Positions 2,442 to 31,898 of a stretch of DNA of 35,121 nt are shown here, piece by piece. A program made the position numbers and the translations under genes. The notes below the pieces were generated by a model, which worked only from the letters and a program-made list of their open reading frames with translations, was not told where the DNA came from and made no database searches. Position 1 is the stretch's first letter; the number at the start of each line of letters is the position of its first letter. The DNA comes from Fidelibacterota bacterium. Lineage in GTDB: Bacteria > Fidelibacterota > Marinisomatia > Marinisomatales > SCKK01. The stretch is taken from contig SCKK01000039.1 in the NCBI GenBank assembly GCA_004124475.1, positions 1 to 35,121 on the forward strand, read 5' to 3'.

Positions 2442-4856
2442 ATGAAACCGAATACACTTTCCCTCCTACAAAGATTATCCCGGTATCTTAAACTGAATAT
2501 CGAGAAGAAGCTGGGGATTGCTTTTGTAGGACTATCAGCGGCTTCCATATTAATGATAGGTGTGTTTGCGATAGCAACGACGACTCGATACATACGAAAC
2601 AATACTATTGCCGAGCTTGAACATTTTGCGGAAGAAGTGAGTATTCGTCTTCAAGATTTTCTTAACGTCGTTGACTCAGATTTGACGTATATCATGAACT
2701 CAAAGCAGTTTCAGGCAGTTTCTACCACATTAATGGATGATCATTCAAGTGAAGCGGACGCTTTTTTAGATTTTATTCGTGGCTTGATGCAAAACAAACA
2801 GTTTTACTATGAAATAAAATATTTAGAGGAGTTTACTGAGCCCCTGAGTTTAGTTCGTAATCCCGAGAATCTGGAAGAAACAATAATCTCCAAAAAACAG
2901 ACAAGTTGGAATTTCTACCATCTTCTGGTCAATCCGCAGTATCCTGTGGATAATTTAGTCTACAATGAAATGGTCATGGTACCCGTTGAATTAAGTACTC
3001 AAAATTCAAACGAAACACTTTCTGCTTTCAGTTTTGTCATGCCATATTCGATTGATGGACAATCGCAAAAGGGATTATTAGTTGCCAATGTATTTGCGTC
3101 CCAAATTTTTTCAATAATTGAAACTTCCGTTAAAAAGAGAGATGTTTTCACCGCCGCCATTGTGGATAAGGAAGGTAATTATCTTTATCACTCAATTAGA
3201 ATGGCTGATTGGAATAAATGGCTCGCTGAAAAGAATAAATTCAATATTTTTTCTGACTTTTCTAAGTCTAATGCTTTAGAAATAATCTTGGGAGATATGG
3301 GATACATTGAAGAAACCGATAATCTTGTTTTTCATATGCCCCTTCTCTGGGGTTCTTCGGCGCTAAATCAAAACTACTCATTTTTACTCTCGCAACCAAA
3401 GTCCGTAATTTTTGTACCCCTACGAAAGTTCATATTATACTCTATTGTTTTCGTTGTGGCATTCTTGCTAATTGCGTTTTTTTTGAGTCACATTGCTACA
3501 AAACAATTCGTCCAGCCTATTCAGAATCTTCAAAAAGGCTCAGATATAATCGCCCAGGGTGATTTTACACACAGGCTTGATATACAGACCGGGGATGAAA
3601 TTCAAGAACTCGCTGAAAAATTCAATCAGATGGCTCAATCCATTCAAGAAAGAGATAAACAACTCCATGATCACAGCTTTGAATTGGAGAAAAAAGTCTT
3701 AGAGCGAACTAATCAACTGACTGAAGAAAAGAATAAACTTCAGATCATTTTGGATAATGTACCAAGCGCATTTATATTATTAGATAAGAATTACCAAATC
3801 CTGACTGCCAGCAGGGCAATCAAAGACTTGACAGGGTATGGTAGCGATGAATCCATAGGAAAAAGATGTTATGAATTGTTCGGATACTCAGATATTTGTG
3901 ATTATTGCGTCTCCAAACTCACTGATAACTCAAAGATAAGTCGGACTGAGTTCAAAATAACAAATAATAATGAACCGTCGAGAGTAATCGAGTTAATTTG
4001 TGTTCCTGTTCACCAAGACAACCGGGAAACGATGCACTTAGAAATTCTAACAGACATTACTACGAGGAAAGAGATGCAGAAACAGATTCTTCAATCTGAA
4101 AAATTGGCTTCTATTGGTGAAATGGCGGCAGTGTTAGCCCATGAAATGCGTAACTCCCTCACATCTGCAAAAATGTTGATGCAACTTTTAAGCCAGTCTC
4201 AACACCTTCCTAAGCCTGACAAAGAATCTCTGGAGGTAGCTCTCACATCCATACAAAGAATTGATAAAATCACCAACGATCTTTTATCATTTTCGCAACC
4301 CTCAGAGCTTAAAAAGGCTCTAGAAGATATTAGAGCAATCATTCAGGAAAGTGTGCAACTGTCCAAGCATCATTTCGAAAAACAAAATATCCTCATCACC
4401 CTGGACTTGGATGAAAATGTACCCAATTTATGGCTGGATAGAAGTCTATTCCAGGAGGTGGTAATGAATATCCTCCTGAACGGTTCTCAATCTATTGGCG
4501 AAAACGGAACAATACATATTTCTCTTACTCAAAGCATTTTATCAAAAGATTTTCACGGCGCCAAAAGGTCAACTAATAACAGAAGCGAGAGCGAAGAAAT
4601 TACACTCACAAAAGGATTATCAGTCGTCACCCTGACTATTTCAGATTCCGGTCCTGGTATCCAGCCAGATAAACTGGATAGGATATTCGATCCGTTTTTC
4701 ACAACAAAATTAGAAGGTACTGGTTTGGGACTATCCATGGCAAAACGTGTTGTTTCTGAACATGGTGGGATAATATTTGCTGAGAATACGAAGGGATCCG
4801 GTGCATGTCTATCGATCATCATTCCTATTACAACAGGAGACAGTTTAAATGCCTGA
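2442..4856 (+). CDS. Membrane sensor histidine kinase (Cache-like/HAMP/PAS/HisKA/HATPase)
   Basis: Sensor of an NtrB-type two-component pair, 804 aa. Order of domains: a transmembrane segment near residues 24-46, a periplasmic sensor of about 280 residues (Cache-like by length and position), a second transmembrane segment near 327-349, HAMP, a short coiled coil (LEKKVLERTNQLTEEKN) and a PAS domain near 430-545. The PAS domain contains a CYELFG...CDYC cysteine pattern. The HisKA box LAHEMRNSLTSAKM has phospho-acceptor H567. The ATPase has N676/N680 of the N box, DSGPGI, and GTGLGL. The stop overlaps the following response-regulator gene by 8 nt, implying translational coupling. The stimulus is not visible; the downstream redox cluster suggests a copper, nitrogen-oxide or redox signal (inference). 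Confidence 0.93.
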   Translation: MKPNTLSLLQRLSRYLKLNIEKKLGIAFVGLSAASILMIGVFAIATTTRYIRNNTIAELEHFAEEVSIRLQDFLNVVDSDLTYIMNSKQFQAVSTTLMDDHSSEADAFLDFIRGLMQNKQFYYEIKYLEEFTEPLSLVRNPENLEETIISKKQTSWNFYHLLVNPQYPVDNLVYNEMVMVPVELSTQNSNETLSAFSFVMPYSIDGQSQKGLLVANVFASQIFSIIETSVKKRDVFTAAIVDKEGNYLYHSIRMADWNKWLAEKNKFNIFSDFSKSNALEIILGDMGYIEETDNLVFHMPLLWGSSALNQNYSFLLSQPKSVIFVPLRKFILYSIVFVVAFLLIAFFLSHIATKQFVQPIQNLQKGSDIIAQGDFTHRLDIQTGDEIQELAEKFNQMAQSIQERDKQLHDHSFELEKKVLERTNQLTEEKNKLQIILDNVPSAFILLDKNYQILTASRAIKDLTGYGSDESIGKRCYELFGYSDICDYCVSKLTDNSKISRTEFKITNNNEPSRVIELICVPVHQDNRETMHLEILTDITTRKEMQKQILQSEKLASIGEMAAVLAHEMRNSLTSAKMLMQLLSQSQHLPKPDKESLEVALTSIQRIDKITNDLLSFSQPSELKKALEDIRAIIQESVQLSKHHFEKQNILITLDLDENVPNLWLDRSLFQEVVMNILLNGSQSIGENGTIHISLTQSILSKDFHGAKRSTNNRSESEEITLTKGLSVVTLTISDSGPGIQPDKLDRIFDPFFTTKLEGTGLGLSMAKRVVSEHGGIIFAENTKGSGACLSIIIPITTGDSLNA

Positions 4857-6288
4857 GTTAAAAATTCTCATTGCCGATGATGATGAAAACATCATCTTTG
4901 CTTTTAAACGAACCTTTGAGAACAGTAACTATACGGTAATATCTTCTCCCGATGGGGAAGATGCATTAAAAACACTCCTTGATGAACATCTTGATTTGGC
5001 TTTTATCGATATAGCAATGCCGAAGAAAGATGGATTAACAGTTTTAAAAGAGGCAAAAAAAGTAGGCATTAAAACTCCCATTGTGGTGATCACAGGATAT
5101 GGCACAATGCAGACTGCAATTGAAGCGATGAAATTAGGCGCGTATGAATATATCACAAAACCGCTTGATGTGGAAAAGGTAAGGGTCGTAGCAAAACATG
5201 GTATCGAGATGGTCAAGCTGCAACAAGAGGTGAGCGATCTCAAAGCGGCACTGGACAGACCTAAGCAGAAAGATGAAATTATTGGGAATCATCCTCTCAT
5301 GCAGGAGGTTTTCAAACAAATTGGCGCTGTGGCTCTGACACCAAACACCACGAATGTCATCATCACCGGCGAAAGCGGGACGGGGAAAGAATTAGTGGCT
5401 AAGGCAATCCACAATGCTGGGGAAAACAGTCAAGCTCCCTTTATTGCCATCAACTGTGCGGTTCTCCCGGAGACTCTACTTGAGAGTGAGCTTTTTGGAT
5501 ATGAACAGGGGGCTTTTACAGGGGCGACATCACGGAAATTGGGAAAATTCGAAGTAGCCAGATCAGGGACGATATTCCTAGATGAAATAGGGGATATGCC
5601 TTTACATATTCAACAGAAACTGCTCCGTGTTCTGGAAGAAAGAACCTTCGAACGCATTGGTGGAAATCAGAAAATTAACGTAAAAGCACGATTTATTACC
5701 GCAACCAACAAAGACCTCACATTAATGTTAAAAGCCGGAACATTCAGAAAAGACCTCTACTATCGCCTTCAGGTAATACCCATTGAGCTGCCCCCTCTCC
5801 GTGACCGTGGGGCAGATATTCCTCTATTGGCAAATTTCTTTTTATCAAAGTATAATCGAATGCTTCATAAACAGATTAAAGTCATTTCCGAAGAGGTGAT
5901 GAACTTCTTAATGAATTATGGTTATCCCGGAAATGTTCGTGAATTACAAAACATTCTGGAACATTGTATCACAAGAGAAAGAGGAGATGTTTTAACTCCC
6001 GCATCTTTTCCCGAGTACTTAAAGAAAAAACAGACGGAATCTCGTTATCATTTTACTTTTCCATTCAAAGGATCCTTCGAGACGGATCATTCCGATAAAA
6101 GTTTTGACCTGAAAGAAATTAGAGCAGACATCATAGATTCCTTTGAGAAACAGTTTGTCAAGCATCTATTGACGTTGACAAAAGGAAATGTTACATCAGC
6201 AGCCCAAAAAGCTAACATAGAGCGACAAAGTCTTCAGCGCCTCATGAGGAAACACGGAATTCGGTCGGAAAACTTCCGAGGTTCCTGA
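4849..6288 (+). CDS. NtrC-family sigma-54-dependent response regulator
   Basis: Transcription activator of 479 aa. The receiver domain (1-120) has the acidic cluster D10-D12, phospho-acceptor D54, T82 and K104. The AAA+ sigma-54 interaction domain has Walker A GESGTGKE (174-181), the GAFTGA loop (221-226) that contacts sigma-54, Walker B with D245-E246, and a [16 protein letters not shown] segment. The C-terminus has a Fis-type helix-turn-helix ([21 protein letters not shown]). All residues needed for an active sigma-54 activator are present. It is coupled to the upstream kinase and is followed by a sigma-54-like promoter with an upstream inverted repeat, so the 6539-12233 cluster is its likely target. 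Confidence 0.95.
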
Positions 6289-6538: not shown

Positions 6539-7843
6539 ATGAAGAAATATTTTGAGAATCTTACTTCATTGGGCATCATAACTGTTTTGTTGTGGACTCT
6601 GGTTCCTACAAAAGTATTAAGTATTCCCGCATTTTCAAGAAAATACAGAACCAGTTGTGCTACTTGCCATGTAGGGTTTCCCAAGCTGACTCCCTTCGGT
6701 GAATCGTATCGGCAAAAGGGCTTTCAAATGCCAGAGATTGAAGAAGAATCCATTAAGGAGGAGCCGGTTCCTCTTGGTTCGGAAGGGTACAAACGAGTTT
6801 GGCCAAAGGCTATCTGGCCTGGATCAATTCCGGGTTCTTCGCCGATCTCGTTTAGGATTCGTTCCGGATTCAAATACGAGTCGGATGAAGATTCAGAGTA
6901 TACTGAATTCACCCAACCTGCCTTACAGATCATGGCTGGCGGAACGTTTGGTGAGAACATATCCTTCTATGCCGGAGCACACCTTTTTGAAGAGGGGGAG
7001 GCTGGAAGTCTTGATCGTCTCTATCTCAAATTTAATCACCTGTTCTCCAATGTACTACCGTACGACGCTCTATATGTGAGAGTAGGGCAGTTCGTCCCTG
7101 ACATTGTACCATTCATCACAAATCATCGTGCCCTTACAATGACTGCTTTTGCTTTTAATACTTATGCACCAGCGTATGGCTCCGGATTTGTTCCAGGGCA
7201 TGTCCATGGAGCAGGTCCATTTGGATTGGAGTCGTTCCAACTCGGTGCTGAAGCCAGCGGAATTCTGAAAAGCAGAATAAGATATGTCCTTGGCATAGTC
7301 AATGGCAACGGCGTTGAGGAAGATAACAATTTAGCTAAGGATTTATATTTTCGGCTGGGCTATAAAATGGGTGGACTCGCCTATGATGGAACATCAGATG
7401 GAGATATTTATGGACCGAGTGGCAACAATTGGGCTGAGAAATCCTTAGCAGTCTCAGCGTTTGGGTATTTGGGAACCGGCGTGAGTAGTGGGAAGGATGT
7501 GGATTTTTCACGCCTTGGTTTGGACCTTAATCTCTTTATGCGGGATCTTAACCTGTTCGGAGGAGTGATCGCCGGAACAGATGCTGAGTATCATGGTGAG
7601 GAACTGCATGAGGAAAAATATTCTCTGTTTTTTCTTGAAGGTAATTACATGATCTATCCATGGCTCATTGCTGTACTCCGTTATGAACAAGCCAATCCTG
7701 AGGATCTGGATTCTGTCCGGCAGGTTGTCGCCCATATAACAGCACTTTATATAGCAAACATTAAATTTATAGTCGAATCCAGACTCGATCCTGATAATAT
7801 GGAATTCAACAATCTTTATCTGGGAATGGACTTTGTGTTCTGA
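6539..7843 (+). CDS. Monoheme c-type cytochrome/outer-membrane barrel protein
   Basis: 434 aa with a signal peptide (about 1-29) and one heme c motif, C40-x-x-C43-H44, in the segment KYRTSCATCHVGFPKLTPFGE. The rest is rich in alternating hydrophobic and aromatic strands (YVRVGQF, LFFLEGNYMIYPW, NLYLGMDFVF at the C-terminus). The final aromatic residue is typical of outer-membrane beta-barrels. Proteins with this N-terminal heme block joined to a porin-like barrel occur in several Gram-negative phyla; their function is not established. It may conduct electrons or a substrate across the outer membrane. A strong AAAGGAG ribosome site precedes ATG 6539. It is the first gene after the candidate sigma-54 promoter. 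Confidence 0.75.
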   Translation: MKKYFENLTSLGIITVLLWTLVPTKVLSIPAFSRKYRTSCATCHVGFPKLTPFGESYRQKGFQMPEIEEESIKEEPVPLGSEGYKRVWPKAIWPGSIPGSSPISFRIRSGFKYESDEDSEYTEFTQPALQIMAGGTFGENISFYAGAHLFEEGEAGSLDRLYLKFNHLFSNVLPYDALYVRVGQFVPDIVPFITNHRALTMTAFAFNTYAPAYGSGFVPGHVHGAGPFGLESFQLGAEASGILKSRIRYVLGIVNGNGVEEDNNLAKDLYFRLGYKMGGLAYDGTSDGDIYGPSGNNWAEKSLAVSAFGYLGTGVSSGKDVDFSRLGLDLNLFMRDLNLFGGVIAGTDAEYHGEELHEEKYSLFFLEGNYMIYPWLIAVLRYEQANPEDLDSVRQVVAHITALYIANIKFIVESRLDPDNMEFNNLYLGMDFVF

Positions 7844-21565: not shown

Positions 21566-22936
21566 CTATTCACTTATTTTTAAAATCATTTCTGTTGATG
21601 CTTTACTATTTGCCTGTATTTTTTTCCTATACGTTATTTTTTTAACTTGGGTTGCAGACAATGGTCGCCTGACAGATTCCGGAGCAATTCCGGCTTTGAT
21701 AGCATTCAGCACACCGGCAGCTTCCCAATAGTTATCAACCATGTATAATTGACCGGGTTTCCAAGGTAAAGCCCTCAGATCATTTTTCATCAGGTTATAA
21801 TTTTCCCGAACACCGATAACTTTAATACCCTGTTCTAAAGCGGCTAATGTAGGTAAACCAACGCAACCATCAGGAATAACAAGGCAGGAGATATCTTCTG
21901 CCGTAATAATATTAGGATGAAGCATATTATTAGGGTCAGTGATAATTCTTGGACTTCGACTAAGCCCTTTCAAAATCGATTGTAAAAAAGTCACAGAAAC
22001 AACTTCCGCCGCCATCCGTGGATCTACTACTCCAGGATCCATATTTGCAATTTCAGGTGACTCAAACATTGGTGAATGAGCAGAAGGCACATTGTAAAGT
22101 AGTGAGATTCCATGTGTAAGGATCGCTTCAACGCCACCCCACGGGTTGATCATTGATCCTTCACTCTTGTAATAATCTGTATGATAGCTTTTTGGCACAT
22201 CAATTACAGATGACAAAGCTACTGCATCGTATTCATCCCGATATTCATCCATTACATTCAACAGAGCTTTTAACCGGTCAATTTTCCCCACTGCTCGACC
22301 GGAAGATGAATATTCCGAACTCATATGAATTGGTGGATCAATTTGCAGGATCCTTGAGCACTGAAAACCGTAAGCCGCTCTGGCTCCGTTAACACTATTA
22401 ATTGCAGCATTTACGAAAATTTGATGGGGGTGATCATCGATGACGACCAGTACACGATTTGAGTGGACAGGCTGTAATCCAAGAGTTCCCATGAGTAAGC
22501 GACTGATAATACTGCCTTCTACATATAAACCATTATCAGGGATTTCGTTGATATCGGATGCGTTAACAACATTGGGGTGGGTAATCAATGTATCACAGGT
22601 TTCCGACAATAATTTCGCGACCGGTCCAGCATCACCAGAGTGTCCACCCACCTCCGCTCCAATACCTGTTGGAACCAATAGGACAGTATTGAACTTATTG
22701 ATATTTTCTGTTGATCTCTTTGAAAAATGAAAAATCGAATCTGTTATTTCATGATCATTTCCTGATAATAAACCCAGCTCACAATGATAATGGTCAACTT
22801 TCGTTTCCGTAACCACAAAACGGACTGGAATTTCATCCTTTGGAATAAATTCACTAATAACCTTGTTAAAATGATTTATCAGGTTTTTATGCCCGGGTAC
22901 TATCGGTATCTCAAACTCTTTTTCATACAGTTTCAT
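21566..22936 (-). CDS. DUF3326-family protein
   Basis: 456 aa. The central block VPTGIGAEVGGHSGDAGPVA, KLLSETCDTLITHPNVVNAS, DINEIPDNGLYVEGSIISRL is characteristic of DUF3326, a family of unknown function known from cyanobacteria, plants and other bacteria. Later conserved-looking parts are NPWGGVEAILTHG, SAHSPMFESPEIANMDPGVV, DPRMAAEVVS and IPDGCVGLPTLAALEQGIKV. No signal peptide or membrane segment, so it is cytoplasmic. It lies 57 bp downstream of the SpeD-like gene and 2.7 kb from an MfnB-like gene on the same strand. A metabolic partnership with MfnB is possible but unproven. Confidence 0.85.
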   Translation of the reverse strand: MKLYEKEFEIPIVPGHKNLINHFNKVISEFIPKDEIPVRFVVTETKVDHYHCELGLLSGNDHEITDSIFHFSKRSTENINKFNTVLLVPTGIGAEVGGHSGDAGPVAKLLSETCDTLITHPNVVNASDINEIPDNGLYVEGSIISRLLMGTLGLQPVHSNRVLVVIDDHPHQIFVNAAINSVNGARAAYGFQCSRILQIDPPIHMSSEYSSSGRAVGKIDRLKALLNVMDEYRDEYDAVALSSVIDVPKSYHTDYYKSEGSMINPWGGVEAILTHGISLLYNVPSAHSPMFESPEIANMDPGVVDPRMAAEVVSVTFLQSILKGLSRSPRIITDPNNMLHPNIITAEDISCLVIPDGCVGLPTLAALEQGIKVIGVRENYNLMKNDLRALPWKPGQLYMVDNYWEAAGVLNAIKAGIAPESVRRPLSATQVKKITYRKKIQANSKASTEMILKISE

Positions 22937-22993: not shown

Positions 22994-23380
22994 TTATTTT
23001 CTCTCAATTAAGTGTGAACTGACAATTTTTCCTTTAAACCATTCTGCAGAAAAATTCTGTGCGATTTCAGCATCAAAATCTTTACAGGAAAAAATATTGA
23101 TATACACCGCACCAAGCAGGTCCAAAGTATGAATTACGATATTGCTTGTCATAATAAATTGCACAGCCGACGTTCCTTTAAAATGGGGTTCGGTCTGTTG
23201 GTCCTCGGGGGCAACACCATGGTCATCCCACCAGCTTAGTTTACAGCGATCCATGTCAATCAACTTGCACAATTCGACAAAATACTGTTTAATATTTCTT
23301 CTGTTGAAAATTGTTGGATCGCAATCGTGAAGATCCAATATTAACTCTTTACCATAGTGGTTATTATCTAAAGGTGTCAT
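22994..23380 (-). CDS. SpeD-like (S-adenosylmethionine decarboxylase family) protein
   Basis: 128 aa. GKELILDLHDCD at the N-terminus and the segment GTSAVQFIMTSNIVIHTLDL...VYINIFSC match the class 1 AdoMet decarboxylase fold. S79, H84 and C99 have the same spacing (+5, +15) as the pyruvoyl-forming Ser63, His68 and Cys83 of short bacterial SpeD. The residue before the Ser is Thr instead of the usual Glu, and the residue after it is Asn instead of His. Self-cleavage and decarboxylation are therefore plausible, but the substrate may differ. The ATG overlaps the HNH gene stop by 4 nt, so it belongs to the ATPase-HNH operon, not to a polyamine operon. Confidence 0.75.
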   Translation of the reverse strand: MTPLDNNHYGKELILDLHDCDPTIFNRRNIKQYFVELCKLIDMDRCKLSWWDDHGVAPEDQQTEPHFKGTSAVQFIMTSNIVIHTLDLLGAVYINIFSCKDFDAEIAQNFSAEWFKGKIVSSHLIERK

Positions 23381-24204
23381 CTTATTAGGCCAATTGTATT
23401 TACTATTTCAGTGATGCTGTCCCGTATTACTTTCCTTGCTGATATTGTATAAGGTTTACTTCCTTCTTTTATTAAATTTAATTCATCAATCTCCCGATTT
23501 TTTCTGGGATCGATTTCGTCCATTGAAAAAATTGCCTTAATCTTTCTTTTTATATTATCATACGCTGTTTTTCTTTCTTCCAGAAGTGCTTCACGAACGT
23601 TTAATCCAAATACTTCAATAACCGTTTCCCCCTTTGTTGATCTGTTTCGCACATGAATTATTCCTAATTCATCAATATATATATGATCAGCTGGATCCTC
23701 AAACATAGGATTAATTAATAGTTCTTCCTCATTAACCTCCTCCCCCGGATTAATTGCATATTGATTTTCTAAAGGGAAGCGATTGCCCTTTCCAATCTGG
23801 TGTTCTGAACGTTGATCCTCATGCCATGTATTACATTTCCAGCAAGTTGGTAGTAAGTTACGCCAGTCGTAAGCAAGCCAGTAATACCCTGGATGTGGTT
23901 TGATGTCAACCCCATTTTCCTGTATCATCACACGTGTATTATCTATATATCTAATCCCACCTTTTGGTCTATAATGATCAACATAAGTTGGTGAGTTTAC
24001 CTCAATACTAGATTCACAGTAGGCGCATTTACCATAAAATGGTTTCCCATAGAATCTTTCTTTTTGTTCACTGTATAAATTAGTAATGCTAATTTGTATA
24101 CCATTTTGGTAATCTTTGATTAATTGTTCTGTTGCATCATTACAGTTTTGAATCCATTGCATCCATTCTAAATCATCAGGCTCAGTAAAATCCAAGAAAA
24201 TCAT
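23377..24204 (-). CDS. HNH endonuclease, PtuB/TIGR02646-like
   Basis: 275 aa from ATG 24204, 1 bp after the ATPase stop; a TTG at 24213 would overlap the ATPase gene by 8 nt. The nuclease core is complete: C60-A-Y-C63-E, the D-H of TYVDHYRPKGG, YDWRNLLPTC (Asn) and C121-W-K-C124-N. The paired CxxC bind structural zinc and the DH...N...N form the HNH metal site. This arrangement is that of PtuB nucleases of Septu and of retron-associated HNH proteins. The C-terminal third is helical and basic (REALLEERKTAYDNIKRKIK). It probably cuts DNA or RNA when licensed by the neighbouring ATPase. Confidence 0.85.
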   Translation of the reverse strand: MIFLDFTEPDDLEWMQWIQNCNDATEQLIKDYQNGIQISITNLYSEQKERFYGKPFYGKCAYCESSIEVNSPTYVDHYRPKGGIRYIDNTRVMIQENGVDIKPHPGYYWLAYDWRNLLPTCWKCNTWHEDQRSEHQIGKGNRFPLENQYAINPGEEVNEEELLINPMFEDPADHIYIDELGIIHVRNRSTKGETVIEVFGLNVREALLEERKTAYDNIKRKIKAIFSMDEIDPRKNREIDELNLIKEGSKPYTISARKVIRDSITEIVNTIGLIR

Positions 24205-24205
24205 G

Positions 24206-25525
24206 TTATTCAATTAAATTCTTCAATTGCCTTAACACCTCGTAGTTGACAGGCGATTTTTTATCCTTAAATTTTTTTAGCTTCTCATTATATAATTCTT
24301 CCAAAATTCTATCTAAAATATTAGTTGCTTTTTTTTCCAGTTCTGTCTCGCCTGATCCTAATTGAGCATCTAAGCTACTATAAAGTTCATGCAGTTCTTT
24401 TTCTTCAATATTTGTTCTAGATTCTCTGGAGTATAATTTTGAATAACGCTCAATATCTCGCTTAAGGGCATTGTCACTTGCTGTAAGAAGGTCAAATATA
24501 TATGATGTTAAAACCTGATCAACCCTTTTTCCTCGTGGTGGTGTAGAAACTCTACATTCAATTTGTTTTTCTTTCTGCTCCAAAACAACAATTGAACATT
24601 CTTCATCCCTTAAATCCGTAGTTCCAACAACGCATAAAGGAGAATGGGTGGTAGCAATAAATTGTAGTTCTGAAAACTGATCCCGTACTAGTTTAACTAT
24701 ATTTTTTTGCCATTTCGGATGTAGATGTTGCTCAATTTCGTCCAATAAAATAATCCCTGAAATATTTAAAATTCTATTAATTGACACCTCCTTTTTTTTG
24801 CCTTCAAAAAGAGACTTCCAGCCAAACATATCAATAATCCAAGTTATAGTAGCTATATATCCATCACCTAACGCATCCATTGGCATTTTTCTACCCCATG
24901 GCCCACTTACTTTAATTCCAGAAAAGTCTAATGTAATTGCTCCCTTTTCCAACATCAAAATTGATTCTAATAGATTAAATATTTTTGTTTCGTCTATACC
25001 CAAAGATTGAATCCTTCTAATGTTTAACTCAGGATTTTGAAGTGGTTGACTATACCTAATTAACGTATAGACTGAATCTGTTATAACATAATCCGAATAA
25101 GATTCAGTTGCATGTAGGCTTCTTGCAGCTCCATAAGCACAAACAAAAAGATTATCCCAATCAAATGTATCAGGTTTTATTGGATTAACTTCTTGGCTTA
25201 CTTCAACTTCCTTAAAGTCATTCATTATAAATTTGGTAGTAATAAAAGTATTTTCTTTACATGCAGGATAGGGTTCTATATCCAGTCGAATAGAACCCTC
25301 TGTACACTCCCTTCGGATCCAGTCACTTCCAAGGTCATCTACAAGCCCTGAAGCTCCCGAAACTTCAGTTAATCCGATAGCAATACTTCTGAGAATAGTT
25401 GTTTTTCCAACTCCATTATCTCCTATAATTAATGCCCATTTCTTGAGCTCATTATTTGAATTAAAATCAATTTCAAGATGCTTAAAGCACCGAATGTTAT
25501 CTATCGTTATCTTTTTTATTTTCAT
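24206..25525 (-). CDS. AAA/ABC-type ATPase, PtuA-like (Septu-type defence)
   Basis: 439 aa of SMC/RecF-like ATPase architecture. The N-terminus is KKITIDNIRCFKHLEIDF, with Walker A G35-D-N-G-V-G-K-T42. Further blocks are FVCAYGAARS, an ABC-signature-like MDALGDGYIATITWI, Walker B IILLDEIEQHLHPKWQ and the switch His in IATTHSP. The C-terminal part is helical. Pairing with an HNH nuclease immediately downstream is the hallmark of Septu (PtuA-PtuB). It lies 125 bp downstream of the MfnB-like gene, in a visibly AT-rich stretch, consistent with horizontal acquisition as a unit with the next two genes. Confidence 0.85.
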   Translation of the reverse strand: MKIKKITIDNIRCFKHLEIDFNSNNELKKWALIIGDNGVGKTTILRSIAIGLTEVSGASGLVDDLGSDWIRRECTEGSIRLDIEPYPACKENTFITTKFIMNDFKEVEVSQEVNPIKPDTFDWDNLFVCAYGAARSLHATESYSDYVITDSVYTLIRYSQPLQNPELNIRRIQSLGIDETKIFNLLESILMLEKGAITLDFSGIKVSGPWGRKMPMDALGDGYIATITWIIDMFGWKSLFEGKKKEVSINRILNISGIILLDEIEQHLHPKWQKNIVKLVRDQFSELQFIATTHSPLCVVGTTDLRDEECSIVVLEQKEKQIECRVSTPPRGKRVDQVLTSYIFDLLTASDNALKRDIERYSKLYSRESRTNIEEKELHELYSSLDAQLGSGETELEKKATNILDRILEELYNEKLKKFKDKKSPVNYEVLRQLKNLIE

Positions 25526-25650: not shown

Positions 25651-26388
25651 TTATGAATTGTATTTGATAGTTTCAATTAACTCTAAGACTAACTCAGTTC
25701 TGATTTTACCAAATCTTAGTTCTTCATCTATGGATTCACACGCTGCCCCGCGCACACAAACAACATCAACACCAGTTTCCCATAACTTTAGCATTTGTTC
25801 TATTGTTATACTTCCTGCTAACCAGGCTTCTTTTCCCAACGAATGGAGATCATCAACAAGTTGTTTTAACTTTTTTACTGTGAAATAATCTAATAAAGAT
25901 TTTCCAATATTCTTATTGTAAGTATCGATCAACAATCCATCACAATTGATCTTTTCAACTAGCATAGGTCCGTCAATCAAAGGATTGAATACACTCATAT
26001 ATTCTTCATCCGGGAAAACAGCAGGGTACATCTTTTTTTCCGGGTGCCATTCTTTTATTGTCCGCATCAAACTTCTACCCAAATAAGTTGATCTTTCTAG
26101 GCTTAGCCCTGCCATTCCGCATTTAATAAAATCAGATCCTGCTGTGGCTACCCCTAAGGCTGCCTGACATGCAGTACTTAACACCGGTTGTTTTTCACCA
26201 ATGTTTGTTGAAATTGGTATTTGTTTAAATCCATTTGAATCCAATTTGTCCCGAACTGCTTTAATGTTTAGTGGATAGGGTGTACCTAAAGCTGATCCAG
26301 GGAATTCAACGTCAGCGATATGAGCCCCACCTCTAGCTGCAACCAATGCTTCTTTAGGACCTCTGACACTAACCAATAAACGACCCAT
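25651..26388 (-). CDS. MfnB-like protein ((5-formylfuran-3-yl)methyl phosphate synthase family)
   Basis: 245 aa, TIM-barrel type. Family blocks: GGAHIADVEFPGSALGTPYP, DFIKCGMAGL, CDGLLIDTYNKNIGKSLLDY, AWLAGSITIEQ and VVCVRGAACESI. The archaeal enzyme builds the furan ring of methanofuran from two glyceraldehyde-3-phosphates. Its DVK near residue 27 holds an active-site Lys (recalled from the M. jannaschii enzyme); here it is DVE. The FIK Lys and the D-x3-K-x3-K region are retained. Function may thus have diverged. No other methanofuran or C1-transfer genes are in the window. The upstream 296 bp include a relic of a methyltransferase tail. Confidence 0.8.
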   Translation of the reverse strand: MGRLLVSVRGPKEALVAARGGAHIADVEFPGSALGTPYPLNIKAVRDKLDSNGFKQIPISTNIGEKQPVLSTACQAALGVATAGSDFIKCGMAGLSLERSTYLGRSLMRTIKEWHPEKKMYPAVFPDEEYMSVFNPLIDGPMLVEKINCDGLLIDTYNKNIGKSLLDYFTVKKLKQLVDDLHSLGKEAWLAGSITIEQMLKLWETGVDVVCVRGAACESIDEELRFGKIRTELVLELIETIKYNS

Positions 26389-26684: not shown

Positions 26685-28202
26685 TTAATTTATATGGTTT
26701 TGAGGTTTTAGCAATTTTTGCCAGACTTCCGTCAGTTGATAACCTCCGGCACGTTTAGATCCCATATATACAATTGCTTTGATATCCCTGAGAGTCTTTA
26801 TATGTCTTTCAATAGTCTTATAGGGCTTATTTAGTTTTCCTGTAATTTCGGAAGCTCTCAAGCTCTTATCTTTAATCAGCAGTTCAATAATTTCCTGCAT
26901 CGATGCCTTTAAGGCATCAGTAATTCCCTTACTTGTTCCCTCATTTATTCCCTCATTATAGTAATCAATAAGTAGTTTATTTAATCCCTCACTTATTCCC
27001 TCACTTATTCCCTCATTGTAATTAAATGGGACAGAAATTCCCGGGAAAGTAACTGTAACCGAATTTCCATGTACACGCCAAAATGGAATTTTGAAGCCCT
27101 GATCACGGCATTGTGAGATCATCTTTACTGTGCCTCGTCCAATTTTTTCAATCCAATTTCTTAAAAAAAAGATGTGTGCAATATCAGGGTTTACAGGAAT
27201 GGAAAGATGATCTTCAGCAAGAGATTTAACTGTTATTCCTTTGGGAAACTTGCCATAGCTGCTGATTTTTAGCTTATCTGGGTAAATGTTAATGGCAACA
27301 CTGCCAGAGTAAGACGAATAGTCGCGATGTATTATAGCATTAAGAATTGCTTCACGAACGGCTAATCGTGGAAATCCAAGCTTATCATTCCGCTTCCAAT
27401 CAGTGGATTTAAAAGAACTAGATACACCATATGCCAAGTCAAAAAAGTCAGTGATCTGTGTAGTTGATTGGAAAAGATTCTTATCGAAAATTTTATCGTA
27501 AAGAATATTTCCGCCGGTTTTATCAGTTTTGTATACAGATAATCTAATTCTAACTTGAGGGAAAAACTGTACAGGTTCTTTACCAAACATTAGTACGGCA
27601 GCGTTTGTGAAATCACCATTTTTGTACAAACCGTATTTACTTAAAAATTGAATGGGATCGGAAGGAATATTGATATCCCGATTAGCCATAGTTACATCTT
27701 TTATACATCCATTCACTTCATTGAGATCAATTTCATCTAACTCAATCTCAATTGCCGGCTTTGTCTCCCATCGCTGATTTATTTCTTGACTACTATGTAT
27801 AAGTTTTGCCAGTTGTGCAGAGCTGGCTTTGACGGTAGAAATGTTTTTTCTATAATAGATACTTCCCTTATAGATATAGGGTGGATTATTACCCTGCCAC
27901 ACATTAATCATGATAACATTCTTATTTTTGTAATTCTGAATATCCACGGAGATAACAGGTTCAGGGACGATTTCTTTTGTGAGGTATTTTGCAATTTCGT
28001 CTGCTTTGTATTTTGCTTTAGTAACGCCGATCACTTGATTTTTATCGCCGCAGCCGATTACTATCTGTCCACCCTTTTTATTAAGAAAGGAGCAAATTAT
28101 TTGGCCAACCTGTTCTTTATCATAAGATGACTTGAATTCAAGTGTTTCTGATTCTTCTTTTTTCAGAATTGATTCAAATTGCATTATATCATCACTTTTC
28201 AT
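26685..28202 (-). CDS. AlbA_2/Schlafen-like protein with ATPase and winged-helix domains
   Basis: 505 aa. The N-terminal AlbA_2 domain (ESETLEFKSSYD, LNKKGGQIVIGCGD) is followed by a GHKL-type ATP-binding region (RLAVREAILNAIIHRDYSSY, IGRGTVKMISQC). A repetitive linker (NEGISEGISEGLNKLL, YYNEGINEGTSKGI) leads to a C-terminal winged helix (SEITGKLNKPYKTIERHIKTL). Proteins of this layout are annotated as putative transcriptional regulators or RecG-related and are common in defence islands. The ATG overlaps the stop of the DUF4062 gene by 4 nt. The role is unproven; nucleic-acid sensing or cleavage through AlbA_2 is a possibility. Confidence 0.85.
   Translation of the reverse strand: MKSDDIMQFESILKKEESETLEFKSSYDKEQVGQIICSFLNKKGGQIVIGCGDKNQVIGVTKAKYKADEIAKYLTKEIVPEPVISVDIQNYKNKNVIMINVWQGNNPPYIYKGSIYYRKNISTVKASSAQLAKLIHSSQEINQRWETKPAIEIELDEIDLNEVNGCIKDVTMANRDINIPSDPIQFLSKYGLYKNGDFTNAAVLMFGKEPVQFFPQVRIRLSVYKTDKTGGNILYDKIFDKNLFQSTTQITDFFDLAYGVSSSFKSTDWKRNDKLGFPRLAVREAILNAIIHRDYSSYSGSVAINIYPDKLKISSYGKFPKGITVKSLAEDHLSIPVNPDIAHIFFLRNWIEKIGRGTVKMISQCRDQGFKIPFWRVHGNSVTVTFPGISVPFNYNEGISEGISEGLNKLLIDYYNEGINEGTSKGITDALKASMQEIIELLIKDKSLRASEITGKLNKPYKTIERHIKTLRDIKAIVYMGSKRAGGYQLTEVWQKLLKPQNHIN
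26930..27021. repeat. Coding 12-nt-type repeats (EGIS/EGIN linker)
   Basis: Repeated CTTATTCCCTCA-like units on the plus strand encode the N-E-G-I-S/N linker of the AlbA_2 protein. Such repeats can change length by slippage without breaking the frame. Confidence 0.65.
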
Positions 28203-28972: not shown

Positions 28973-31543
28973 CTATTTATATTGTTTTAAAATTGTTATA
29001 ATTTTGTTTGGATTTTTACATACTTCAAACTTCCATGACCCCATCTTCCTCCAACTTGAAACAGCGTTACACCATCTTTTTGCCGCTTCGTGTTTTGCAC
29101 GATCTTCTTCATCTTCATAACCCTTAACTTCCAGCACAAGTGTAATACCGGATATGAGCTTCACCAAGAAATCAGGCAAATACGTATTCTGACTTCCACC
29201 AAACTCGTAGTCTATGGTAAAACCAAGGTGATCGTTTTTCACGTATGAAAGAACTAAGTCATTTTGTTCAAGATAGTACGCTACTGATCCTTCCCACCGT
29301 TTTGTGTCGAGTACAACGTGGCTGACATGGCTTTTCAGGGTAGTTCTGGTCTTCTTAGCTGTTCTGAACAGTACTTCGGTAGTAGATCCTCTGGGGCGAA
29401 AGCGTTCGAGTCTGGGAATTAAAGGGGCTTCACCGGCCCCCTCATCCGGCCGTATTGCTGCACATAGTCTCTCGATGACTAACTGAACATATCGTTGCAA
29501 GCCCAGCTCCCGCTGGTCAATACTGTTGTATTCCACCCGACCGTTCTCAGATAATGGCTTCACATAATGTTTCACAATTTGCAGCACTTGAGGAAATAAC
29601 AGTTGTCTCGCCTGCATCTTGAAGTCATCACTTGCTAACAATGCTGAAGTAATCTGTCTCGCTATTTCGTAATGGAATTGCTGAGGACGTACACGCTCAT
29701 AAAATGCTTTCCGAGTTTCTTCTATGGTTTCACCAGGACCTGCAAGACCGGGAACGCCTATCTGGTAGCCAACACGAGCCCTGACGACGGTTTTCGTGGG
29801 TTCCGTTGAGGGGTCTATTTCAAGGAGTTCAATTTTGCTTATGTCGGCAGTAATCCGACTTTTCACTTTGTAAACAAACCCCTCTACTCTCGGGAATTCA
29901 ATCTTAAGTTCTTCTCTTTGTTTCAATGCTTTGACCAGGGTTGTTGGAGGAGGCGGAGGTGTGGGACCCACTGGTTTCTTTTTCACAGGAATAACTTCGA
30001 ATGGAATGCCATAGACGTCCACGTACTCGGGTACTGAAAAATCATCATATTGGGTTCGGCGTAAGCCTCTTCCAACAACTTGCTCACAAAGTAACTGAGA
30101 CTGAAAAGCCCTTAAACCCAAAATATGGGTCACATTCTGTGCATCCCACCCTTCTGTCAGCATTGAAACAGAAACAACACACCGGATATTTGCTCCTGGT
30201 TCACCGACTTTCCCAATAGTATTGACTTTTTTCCTCAGGGCTTCTGCTGCATCCTGTTTTGATTTTCCTTCCTCCCTTTCCTCAGCTTGACTTAGAAGTT
30301 TGCTGTCTATCCGGACTGTGTTCTCGATGTTTTCTGTGTTTCCCAACAATTCGGGAAACACATGTCCAGAATCAAAAACTTTCCGTTTGCGCTTCTTGCC
30401 TTTGGTGTCAGGAACTATTTCCATATGCTCACCGCTTATGTATTCGTGAATCACCTGTGCAATGTTTGTGTTATCACACACAACTATCATCACAGGAGGT
30501 ACTGGATAATTATTTTTTTGAAATTCTTCAAATTTATCCTTCCACTGTCCCGCCAGTTGCTGTAGAGCTCCTTCAGCCTCCCGGATAATGGCTTCTGGCT
30601 TGGGTTTTCGTTTACCACTTGCCCGCTCCTTCGCTGGGAGTTTCTCGTAGATCCATTTCCATAAAGCAAAGTACTCAGGAACGGGGCGTCCTGAGTTGGA
30701 ATCCACAGGCACTTGAGGAATCTTCACAATTCCACACTCTATGGCATCCACCAGTCCGAAGTCAGAAACAATCCATGGGAGAGGACTTCCTTCTGGATAC
30801 CCACTGCCATGGATATAAAATGGCGTTGCTGTTAAATCCATTACCAGATTGATTCCCCTTGCAAGATTGATTCTATCCAGACCAGAAATCCAGACCGTGG
30901 CTTCTTCTTTCTGTTTCTTTTCTTCAGCCGATAGTTTTGCAACTTTCGGATCGTCAGGATCGATGAGTGCTGGACGGTAGGCATGATGAGCTTCATCATT
31001 CATAACAAGGATGTTCTTGGCATTACCCAGGTCTCTCAGCACACGGTAGGCAAACGCCTGCGGGCTCTCTTTCCCCCGTTTCGTGATGCTCCGTTTCTTG
31101 CTGTCATCTATCATTGAAAATTGGTGCCAGTTGGTGATGATGAACTTCCCCCGCCCCAGAAACTCTATCAGGTTGGCTGGAACGAGACCGAATATGTCGT
31201 AGTAATTCCCTTTTGCACCTGGGATGAGTGCACGTTCTGGTTCAGAACCAACATTGGTTATAGGAGCACCGCCTAATCGTTCTTTGATTGTTAAATTTGG
31301 GCACACGATGAGAATAGCATCGGAGCACCATTTTGCCTGGCGGTTGTGTACTTTATTCAGGATACTCCACGCAGCAATCATTGCCATCACCACTGTCTTG
31401 CCGCTGCCAGTAGCCATTTTTATACACTGACGCCTCAGCGATGGAAAACCTTCTTCATTGGGTTCATCTTTTAGGAATAGTGATGCCACGCTGGCCTGGC
31501 TTATGAATCTCGTTGAGCCAGATAATGGTTTCTGCAGCCTCAA
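28973..31543 (-). CDS. res: Type III restriction enzyme Res subunit, main part (frameshifted)
   Basis: Helicase-nuclease of a BPTD_3080-type type III system. Helicase motifs are MATGSGKTVVMAM (K49), DEAHHAYRP, DLTATPFYIHG and TEGWDAQNVTHILGLRAF with QVVGRGLRR. The C-terminal nuclease motif is YLPDFLVKL...LVLEVKGY (PD-ExK). The authentic N-terminus is in a different frame (31464-31898). The two are separated by one extra base in a T4 run on the plus strand (31469-31472), and the first about 24 residues of this frame (MRLQKPLSG...) are out-of-frame translation. Removing one base would give a single protein of about 974 aa. It is either inactivated, phase-shifted or the site of a sequencing error. 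Confidence 0.85.
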   Translation of the reverse strand: MRLQKPLSGSTRFISQASVASLFLKDEPNEEGFPSLRRQCIKMATGSGKTVVMAMIAAWSILNKVHNRQAKWCSDAILIVCPNLTIKERLGGAPITNVGSEPERALIPGAKGNYYDIFGLVPANLIEFLGRGKFIITNWHQFSMIDDSKKRSITKRGKESPQAFAYRVLRDLGNAKNILVMNDEAHHAYRPALIDPDDPKVAKLSAEEKKQKEEATVWISGLDRINLARGINLVMDLTATPFYIHGSGYPEGSPLPWIVSDFGLVDAIECGIVKIPQVPVDSNSGRPVPEYFALWKWIYEKLPAKERASGKRKPKPEAIIREAEGALQQLAGQWKDKFEEFQKNNYPVPPVMIVVCDNTNIAQVIHEYISGEHMEIVPDTKGKKRKRKVFDSGHVFPELLGNTENIENTVRIDSKLLSQAEEREEGKSKQDAAEALRKKVNTIGKVGEPGANIRCVVSVSMLTEGWDAQNVTHILGLRAFQSQLLCEQVVGRGLRRTQYDDFSVPEYVDVYGIPFEVIPVKKKPVGPTPPPPPTTLVKALKQREELKIEFPRVEGFVYKVKSRITADISKIELLEIDPSTEPTKTVVRARVGYQIGVPGLAGPGETIEETRKAFYERVRPQQFHYEIARQITSALLASDDFKMQARQLLFPQVLQIVKHYVKPLSENGRVEYNSIDQRELGLQRYVQLVIERLCAAIRPDEGAGEAPLIPRLERFRPRGSTTEVLFRTAKKTRTTLKSHVSHVVLDTKRWEGSVAYYLEQNDLVLSYVKNDHLGFTIDYEFGGSQNTYLPDFLVKLISGITLVLEVKGYEDEEDRAKHEAAKRWCNAVSSWRKMGSWKFEVCKNPNKIITILKQYK

Positions 31544-31898
31544 GTTGACAGAAAAAAAGCTTCTTCTCTCGATCAGGTGTATTCCAATGTCGTAGGAGTT
31601 GTTTTGTCACATGGCTGGCATTTTTGTATCCTCCTTCCCGCCATTTCCTCACCTGATCTCGTATTTTGTTTACCAGTTCCAATTCCACCATCTCTTCTTC
31701 GGCGAAAAGCTTCGTTTGTCCTGTATCCAATCGCCGTCTTGCTCGAAAATAATAATGAGCCGATCTTCTCCCCGGCTGTTTGCTTGGCAATCCTGTGTCC
31801 TTTTCATATAGCCAATGATATTGGGGCTCAGTCCAAGGGCTATTGATGATCGGCTCATCAACGGCTAAATGTCGTTGAGCTTCAGGTTTAGTCATCAT
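31464..31898 (-). CDS. res: Type III restriction enzyme Res subunit, N-terminal part
   Basis: 144 residues ending in WLNEIHKPGQRGITIPKR and a stop created by the frameshift; the next in-frame residues would be DEPNEEGFPSLRRQCIKMAT. It begins at ATG 31898 or 31895 after AGGAGG, overlapping the truncated ORF6N gene. The EPQYHWLYEKDTG and REKKLFFCQLEAAETIIWL blocks belong to the domain before helicase motif I in this family. Alone it cannot be a restriction enzyme. Confidence 0.8.
   Translation of the reverse strand: MMTKPEAQRHLAVDEPIINSPWTEPQYHWLYEKDTGLPSKQPGRRSAHYYFRARRRLDTGQTKLFAEEEMVELELVNKIRDQVRKWREGGYKNASHVTKQLLRHWNTPDREKKLFFCQLEAAETIIWLNEIHKPGQRGITIPKR

Follow-up and report, generated by a model that had tools for sequence, protein, structure and literature searches.

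A Septu nuclease pair in a recurrent cassette with a predicted amino-acid decarboxylase and a DUF3326 protein: a candidate for metabolite-controlled defence

CBASS (cyclic oligonucleotide-based antiphage signalling system) is an immune system with exchangeable effectors under small-molecule control, and there is precedent, for example in Panoptes, for immune systems in which a constant small molecule restrains the effector. Septu is a known ATPase–nuclease defence type consisting of the PtuA ATPase and the PtuB HNH nuclease; according to Li et al. 2024, PtuA of the solved system is reportedly inhibited by ATP. We describe here a Septu-like pair on contig SCKK01000039.1 of a Fidelibacterota bacterium, a stretch of 35,121 nucleotides analysed in full and referred to below as the window. 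The two genes lie in an operon with a SpeD-like decarboxylase and a DUF3326 protein, and in related loci the enzymes are retained and the nuclease genes exchanged, a pattern suggesting that a small amine may control the defence. The whole analysis is comparative genomics, using metagenome-assembled genomes and metagenomic viral contigs; contig ends cut the loci L002/L006, L014, L067 and L179.

The window contains a five-gene run on the minus strand, from 26388 to 21566, in the order MfnB-like, PtuA, PtuB, SpeD-like, DUF3326 (Table 1). An initial annotation had proposed a unit of three genes, PtuA, PtuB and SpeD-like. All three proved to be intact open reading frames (ORFs) as described, and the unit is longer, the DUF3326 and MfnB-like genes having been overlooked. 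Starting PtuB at the ATG at 24204 leaves a 1-nucleotide gap after PtuA, and an alternative TTG at 24213 gives an 8-nucleotide overlap; because an ATG is present at 24204, the gap is the natural reading. The PtuB stop and the SpeD-like start share the sequence ATGA, a 4-nucleotide overlap. DUF3326 starts 57 nucleotides downstream of the SpeD-like gene, and the MfnB-like gene lies 125 nucleotides upstream of PtuA. Related cassettes repeatedly carry MfnB-like and DUF3326 genes too.

The assignment of the first two of these proteins to the PtuA and PtuB families was borne out by PADLOC profiles (Table 1). The PtuA motifs GDNGVGKTT and LLDEIEQHLHP are present in the alignment, and the nearest solved chain is PtuA 8ee4 (E 4e-18). 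In PtuB the zinc CxxC pairs and the motifs (D/E)H-x-(R/K)-P-K, N-L-L and CxxCN are intact. The pair thus resembles Septu and retron type I-A PtuAB in its protein families, gene order and Walker and HNH motifs, but scores only 119 of 500 and 46 of 150 bits against the retron PtuA and PtuB equivalogs, and the cassette adds MfnB-like, decarboxylase and DUF3326 genes to the known arrangement. The annotated ORFs scanned included no reverse transcriptase, and at gathering threshold Rfam matched nothing in the window; a retron type I-A identity was therefore rejected. The PtuAB of both Septu and retrons cut tRNA-Tyr in E. coli systems (PMC13096335).

PtuAB–decarboxylase loci were found in Neomarinimicrobiota (the window, L006, L067, L068 and a remnant, L003), Bacteroidota (L007, L009 and L014) and Alphaproteobacteria (L015). 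In all, the module is present in seven or more divergent PtuAB loci plus one PtuB remnant, spread over three phyla. Pairwise identities are 31–50% for PtuA and about 28–53% for PtuB, and 58–82% for the SpeD-like and 54–89% for the DUF3326 proteins. The order MfnB–PtuA–PtuB–decarboxylase is kept across phyla (L014, L067). In two genome samples, 491 genomes in total, a PtuA of this clade occurred in four genomes (G135 and G138, together with G000 and G251, which are the sample centres), each time with a decarboxylase directly after PtuB. Next to the closest plasmid PtuAs, which are 26% identical, no decarboxylase or DUF3326 was annotated, and searches of viral contigs for MfnB and PtuA found nothing. 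An association of PtuAB with the decarboxylase far beyond chance is well supported by these counts.

The initial annotation had regarded the SpeD-like protein as a third Septu component. It is indeed repeatedly linked to PtuAB, in at least three phyla, but it is DUF3326 that accompanies it almost constantly, whether PtuAB is present or absent, and a third-gene role was rejected as the primary relation. Nearly all collected SpeD-like homologues (27 genome loci and 26 viral-contig loci, plus relatives) are directly followed by DUF3326, often with a 4-nucleotide overlap. A reverse search with DUF3326 alone gave 69 viral loci, reduced to 60 by dereplication at 90% identity, and 54 of the 60 have a directly adjacent decarboxylase (48 SpeD-like and 6 phosphatidylserine (PS)-decarboxylase-like). 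DUF3326-first searches of whole genomes found a decarboxylase directly adjacent in 12 of 15 scorable loci, sample centres excluded; the profile was built from SpeD-linked members, and the search leans somewhat to that clade. Distances among SpeD-like proteins track those among DUF3326 proteins in the cellular loci (r 0.61; 0 of 2000 permutations).

DUF3326 of the window matches PF11805 with 319.5 bits (gathering cut-off 25). Its AlphaFold2 (AF2) model has a predicted local distance difference test score (pLDDT) of 90.2 and a predicted template-modelling score (pTM) of 0.89, and no fold relative was found in PDB or BFVD below E 1e-3; Pfam and fold searches recognised no transferase or nucleic-acid-binding domain. 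Long forms of the protein have about 80 additional N-terminal residues, which are absent from many phage forms. Cyanobacterial DUF3326 has been reported next to ferredoxin and DUF650 (PMC4284462). INPHARED and PLSDB contained no DUF3326, and SpeD-like matches there were distant (27–35%), which ruled out the use of named phages. Among 120 phage neighbours we found no third conserved partner, only scattered Pfam families, and no recurring DNA-modification genes. A tRNA-modification link in phages was rejected, tRNA genes being near only 4 of the 60 phage DUF3326 loci. Genome G137 has two DUF3326 modules: one (L070, 6777-8131), in sequence prophage-like by eye, with a phage-type SpeD-like gene and a short DUF3326, and one (L081, 6886-9493) in which an NspC-like gene and a long DUF3326 adjoin a membrane protein gene, close to an integrase-like gene.

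The SpeD-like protein scores 53.4 bits against the AdoMet_dc family PF02675 (cut-off 25), and its AF2 model (pLDDT 94.6) matches the S-adenosylmethionine decarboxylase (AdoMetDC) of Thermotoga maritima (1tmi/1vr7, E about 1e-7). The pyruvoyl triad S79, H84 and C99 aligns to S63, H68 and C83 of that enzyme and is invariant in 44 of 44 SpeD-like homologues. The protein has HTLDLL where AdoMetDC has HTWPE, lacks the proline of bona fide AdoMetDC, follows its pyruvoyl serine with N instead of H, and reaches 27.9 bits against the bacterial AdoMetDC equivalog TIGR03330, under the cut-off of 75.65. In SpeDC, an ornithine decarboxylase (ODC), Gln, Thr, Phe and Tyr are diagnostic, and Pro is fully conserved in true AdoMetDC (Li 2023, PMC10407285). 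On our own alignment the window protein has three of these four marks, Q74, T78 and Y93, with T85 at the Phe position, and the distant homologues L029 and L030, which lie beside SpeE and a canonical SpeD, have the complete Q-T-F-Y pattern. A spermidine-synthase domain is absent from 10 of 18 module-bearing genomes; in the host genome such domains occur only in ORFs of 516 and 1134 amino acids. Phage SpeD homologues include ODC and arginine decarboxylase (ADC) enzymes (PMC9992855, PMC10407285). The window protein shares with SpeDC and SpeDA (Li 2023) the AdoMetDC fold, the pyruvoyl triad, the Q/T/Y marks and an occurrence in phages; it differs in Thr85 for Phe, in a clade-specific WWDD...PH insert and in its linkage to DUF3326 rather than to SpeE, homospermidine synthase (HSS) or SpeY. 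It is predicted to decarboxylate an amino acid, not S-adenosylmethionine (SAM).

Three unrelated decarboxylase folds are found beside DUF3326: SpeD-like, NspC-like dependent on pyridoxal phosphate (PLP) and, in phages, PS-decarboxylase-like. In Neomarinimicrobiota, L067 reads MfnB–PtuA–PtuB–PLP decarboxylase up to the contig end, and L068 reads degenerate MfnB–PtuA–PtuB–PLP decarboxylase–DUF3326. NspC-like enzymes also occur in L081, L176 and L180, and L179 shows a C-terminal fragment of one; L179 and L180 belong to the same class as the Desulfobacteraceae locus L010. The replacing enzyme matches PF02784, and also PF00278 in the full-length L068 copy. Carboxynorspermidine decarboxylase NspC is the nearest relative of the L067, L068 and L081 enzymes, which score 176–318 bits against TIGR01047, below the equivalog cut-off of 409; NspC is non-homologous to the SpeD-like protein. 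The PS decarboxylase gene overlaps DUF3326 in phage locus L090 and lies just downstream of it in L095, L097, L098, L100 and L101 (called by PF02666 in L090, L095 and L098, and by similarity in L097, L100 and L101). The DUF3326 tree requires at least six changes of decarboxylase type. That unrelated folds replace the SpeD-like protein argues that DUF3326 needs amino-acid decarboxylation rather than a property specific to SpeD.

In five alphaproteobacterial loci (L019, L021, L025, L175 and L176) a glutathionylspermidine (GSP)-synthase-like gene directly precedes the decarboxylase–DUF3326 pair; the decarboxylase behind it is SpeD-like in L175 and NspC-like in L176. On the large-phage contig L102 an arginase/agmatinase-family gene (6561-7511) adjoins DUF3326, and in phage locus L092 an ornithine-cyclodeaminase-family gene (3939-4865) occupies the decarboxylase position before it. 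All three kinds of neighbour are polyamine-linked by family, and we count them as favouring a putative amine-forming core.

Sister loci were compared across the PtuAB genes. Over SpeD-like–DUF3326 the window matches L006 at 87% DNA identity, which breaks down close to where the decarboxylase gene begins. The PtuB genes share only 54% of their nucleotides, with synonymous divergence (dS) saturated, while the ratios of non-synonymous to synonymous divergence (dN/dS) of the two enzymes are 0.11 and 0.09. L068 and L081 align at 82% DNA identity for about 3 kb to the left and 2.3 kb to the right of a region that holds 2.5 kb with an MfnB remnant, PtuA and PtuB in L068 and 1.4 kb with a 360-amino-acid membrane protein in L081. 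A DUF3326 tree limited to cellular loci requires at least six switches between presence and absence of PtuB. As judged from these alignments, PtuAB is the exchanged part, giving way to a divergent PtuAB or to a membrane protein, and the decarboxylase–DUF3326 end stays collinear between sister loci. Other genes in the effector slot encode class III nucleotide-cyclase-like proteins and uncharacterised proteins of 509 and 286 amino acids (L010, L011). The cyclase-like proteins lie beside SpeD-like or DUF3326 genes three times: in L008/L080 (135-1679), where the L008 protein contains tetratricopeptide repeats (TPR); downstream in L012 (9719-10126); and in L178 (8051-9862), where no decarboxylase adjoins. 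They are possibly an alternative effector or a signal producer.

The MfnB-like protein is related to MJ1099 (4rc1, E 4e-29), and its scores (Table 1) fall far under the NCBIfam equivalog cut-off of 341 bits. Lysines 27, 85 and 155 of MJ1099 are conserved catalytic residues. In all three intact cassette members (the window, L014 and L067) K27 is replaced by Glu, and K85 and K155 are kept. Of these residues, Lys155 has been named as catalytic (PMC11365854). The protein thus resembles MfnB, the 4-(hydroxymethyl)-2-furancarboxaldehyde phosphate (4-HFC-P) synthase of methanofuran biosynthesis, in its relation to MJ1099 and in two of three conserved lysines, and differs in Lys27 to Glu and in having no methanofuran genes nearby. 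Its chemistry has probably changed, and the label 4-HFC-P synthase does not appear justified. The gene holds the same position before PtuA in L014 (69% identity) and L067 (63%), and is degenerate in L068. Genome G001 contains an MfnB-like pseudogene (L069, 8560-9195) with 89% DNA identity to the MfnB region of the window, detached from that genome's own SpeD-like–DUF3326 pair, whose SpeD-like member is only about 65% identical to that of the window.

Gene order, active sites, enzyme pairing, fold replacement and PtuAB exchange can all be read from the loci compared, and from them we infer a regulatory role for the core, whose product may be a ligand controlling the effector. The reading we favour, and hold to be about evenly poised between right and wrong, is a mobile immune cassette with an amine-making decarboxylase–DUF3326 core, exchangeable effectors (here Septu), and control of the effector by the core ligand. 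The decarboxylase and DUF3326 would make a small amine, probably polyamine-like, and the exchangeable effector encoded upstream of them would here be PtuAB, preceded by the MfnB-like enzyme. Because PtuAB cuts tRNA-Tyr and PtuA is reportedly inhibited by ATP, PtuA would be a natural receiver of a metabolic signal. The likeliest sign of control would be inhibitory, with the metabolite restraining PtuAB; phage takeover of metabolism would lower the metabolite, and PtuAB would be released to cut nucleic acid. An inhibitory ligand fits best because phages carry the pair without an effector: their own decarboxylase–DUF3326 pair may keep the effector silent, or they may use the amine for themselves. 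The likeness to CBASS- and Panoptes-type systems lies in a constant enzyme core and swapped effectors, including a membrane protein; the difference is that the core here consists of a decarboxylase and DUF3326, with no nucleotide cyclase, and that ligand control is proposed only. A broader version, which is more probably wrong than right, would make decarboxylase–DUF3326 the constant core of an undescribed class of metabolite-controlled immunity, with an amine ligand, upstream effectors swapped (PtuAB, the membrane protein, possibly the cyclase-TPR protein), and phages widely carrying the pair as counter-defence.

Several observations weigh against an immune cassette. Phages and many bacteria have the core but no defence effector with it, and its function need not be immune; the MfnB-like gene occurs in only some PtuAB loci; and DUF3326 loci without a neighbouring decarboxylase exist (L177, L178, L181, L099, L126, L134 and L153). 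In phages the SpeD-like and DUF3326 distances are uncorrelated (r 0.10), either because the pair is reshuffled there or because divergence is too great to tell. As DUF3326 has no known chemistry or fold relative, the core product is a guess, and contact of the metabolite with PtuA or PtuB, like blocking of phage by the cassette, is something we infer. The main rival starts from the same facts: the decarboxylase–DUF3326 pair would be a short polyamine-type pathway that shares hotspots or an operon with PtuAB and does not regulate it, serving metabolism in phages and fitness in bacteria. In favour of such cargo, the pair stands alone in several bacteria and in phages, where no third partner recurs; the GSP synthase neighbours and the ODC and ADC enzymes among phage SpeD homologues (PMC9992855, PMC10407285) also speak for it. 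The cargo reading accounts poorly for the 4-nucleotide overlap and the PtuA–PtuB–decarboxylase–DUF3326 order fixed across phyla, for the swapping of PtuAB at exactly this position and for a decarboxylase with all PtuA matches of this clade, and we consider it somewhat unlikely.

It is less probable still, and in our view improbable, that the enzymes, with the MfnB-like protein, make an amine put on tRNA or DNA to shield the cell's own nucleic acid from PtuB, with phages marking theirs in the same way. Cleavage of tRNA-Tyr by Septu and retron PtuAB (PMC13096335), carriage of the enzymes by phages and one locus (L017) with the pair beside a type II restriction–modification system are consistent with marking; the domain searches of DUF3326, the few phage loci with tRNA genes nearby and the phage neighbours with no recurring DNA-modification genes all argue against it. 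The SAM function suggested by the initial annotation, in which the SpeD-like protein decarboxylates SAM to consume it, to make decarboxylated SAM as a signal or to sense its depletion, is not supported. The Pfam match and AdoMetDC fold would allow it, and motifs are imperfect predictors, as a Pro-less ADC and a Sinorhizobium-phage AdoMetDC illustrate (PMC9992855). A SAM role is nevertheless very unlikely, because three of four ODC-type marks are present and the AdoMetDC proline is absent; the N after the serine, the sub-threshold equivalog score and the genomes without a spermidine-synthase domain point the same way, as do the NspC-like and PS-decarboxylase-like replacements, the slot in sister cassettes being held by a PLP enzyme outside the SAM-decarboxylase family. 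Accident, by which the third gene merely adjoins a Septu pair in this genome, has just the rarity of the module in its favour; recurrence in divergent loci of three phyla, together with the swap architecture, refutes it, and its remaining probability is negligible.

Table 1. Genes of the PtuAB–decarboxylase–DUF3326 cassette in the window
Feature	Coordinates	Strand	Match
MfnB-like, PF04476, 245 aa, first cassette gene	25651..26388	-	130 and 126 bits
PtuA-like ABC-type ATPase, 439 aa, Walker A and B intact	24206..25525	-	PADLOC E 4e-62
PtuB-like HNH nuclease, 275 aa	23377..24204	-	PADLOC E 6e-46
SpeD-like pyruvoyl decarboxylase (predicted amino-acid decarboxylase, not AdoMetDC), 128 aa	22994..23380	-	PF02675
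DUF3326 protein, 456 aa, near-obligate decarboxylase partner	21566..22936	-	PF11805

The cassette lies, as had been noted at the outset, in an AT-rich insertion beside other defence genes: GC content is 32–36% over about 22.5–29 kb versus 38–49% in the remaining window, and AlbA_2/HATPase, DUF4062, a BPTD_3080-family restriction enzyme and an N6/N4 DNA methylase are encoded at 26.7–34.8 kb. The restriction endonuclease gene is apparently in two minus-strand frames (28973-31543 and 31464-31898) with an 80-nucleotide overlap, which cover profile positions 1-138 and 143-968 and suggest a frameshift or assembly error. Short imperfect 12-nucleotide tandem repeats in the AlbA_2/HATPase gene (26925-27020) encode repeated NEGISEGI-type residues.

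In the literature searched, DUF3326 was rarely mentioned and its function never given, and no description was found of a Septu operon containing a SpeD-like gene. If the proposed control is correct, it would add a metabolite layer, an amine, to Septu, and would open a way into DUF3326, whose members in phages, bacteria, cyanobacteria and plants are uncharacterised. It would also explain the SpeD-like gene of many environmental phages as half of a fixed two-enzyme pair.

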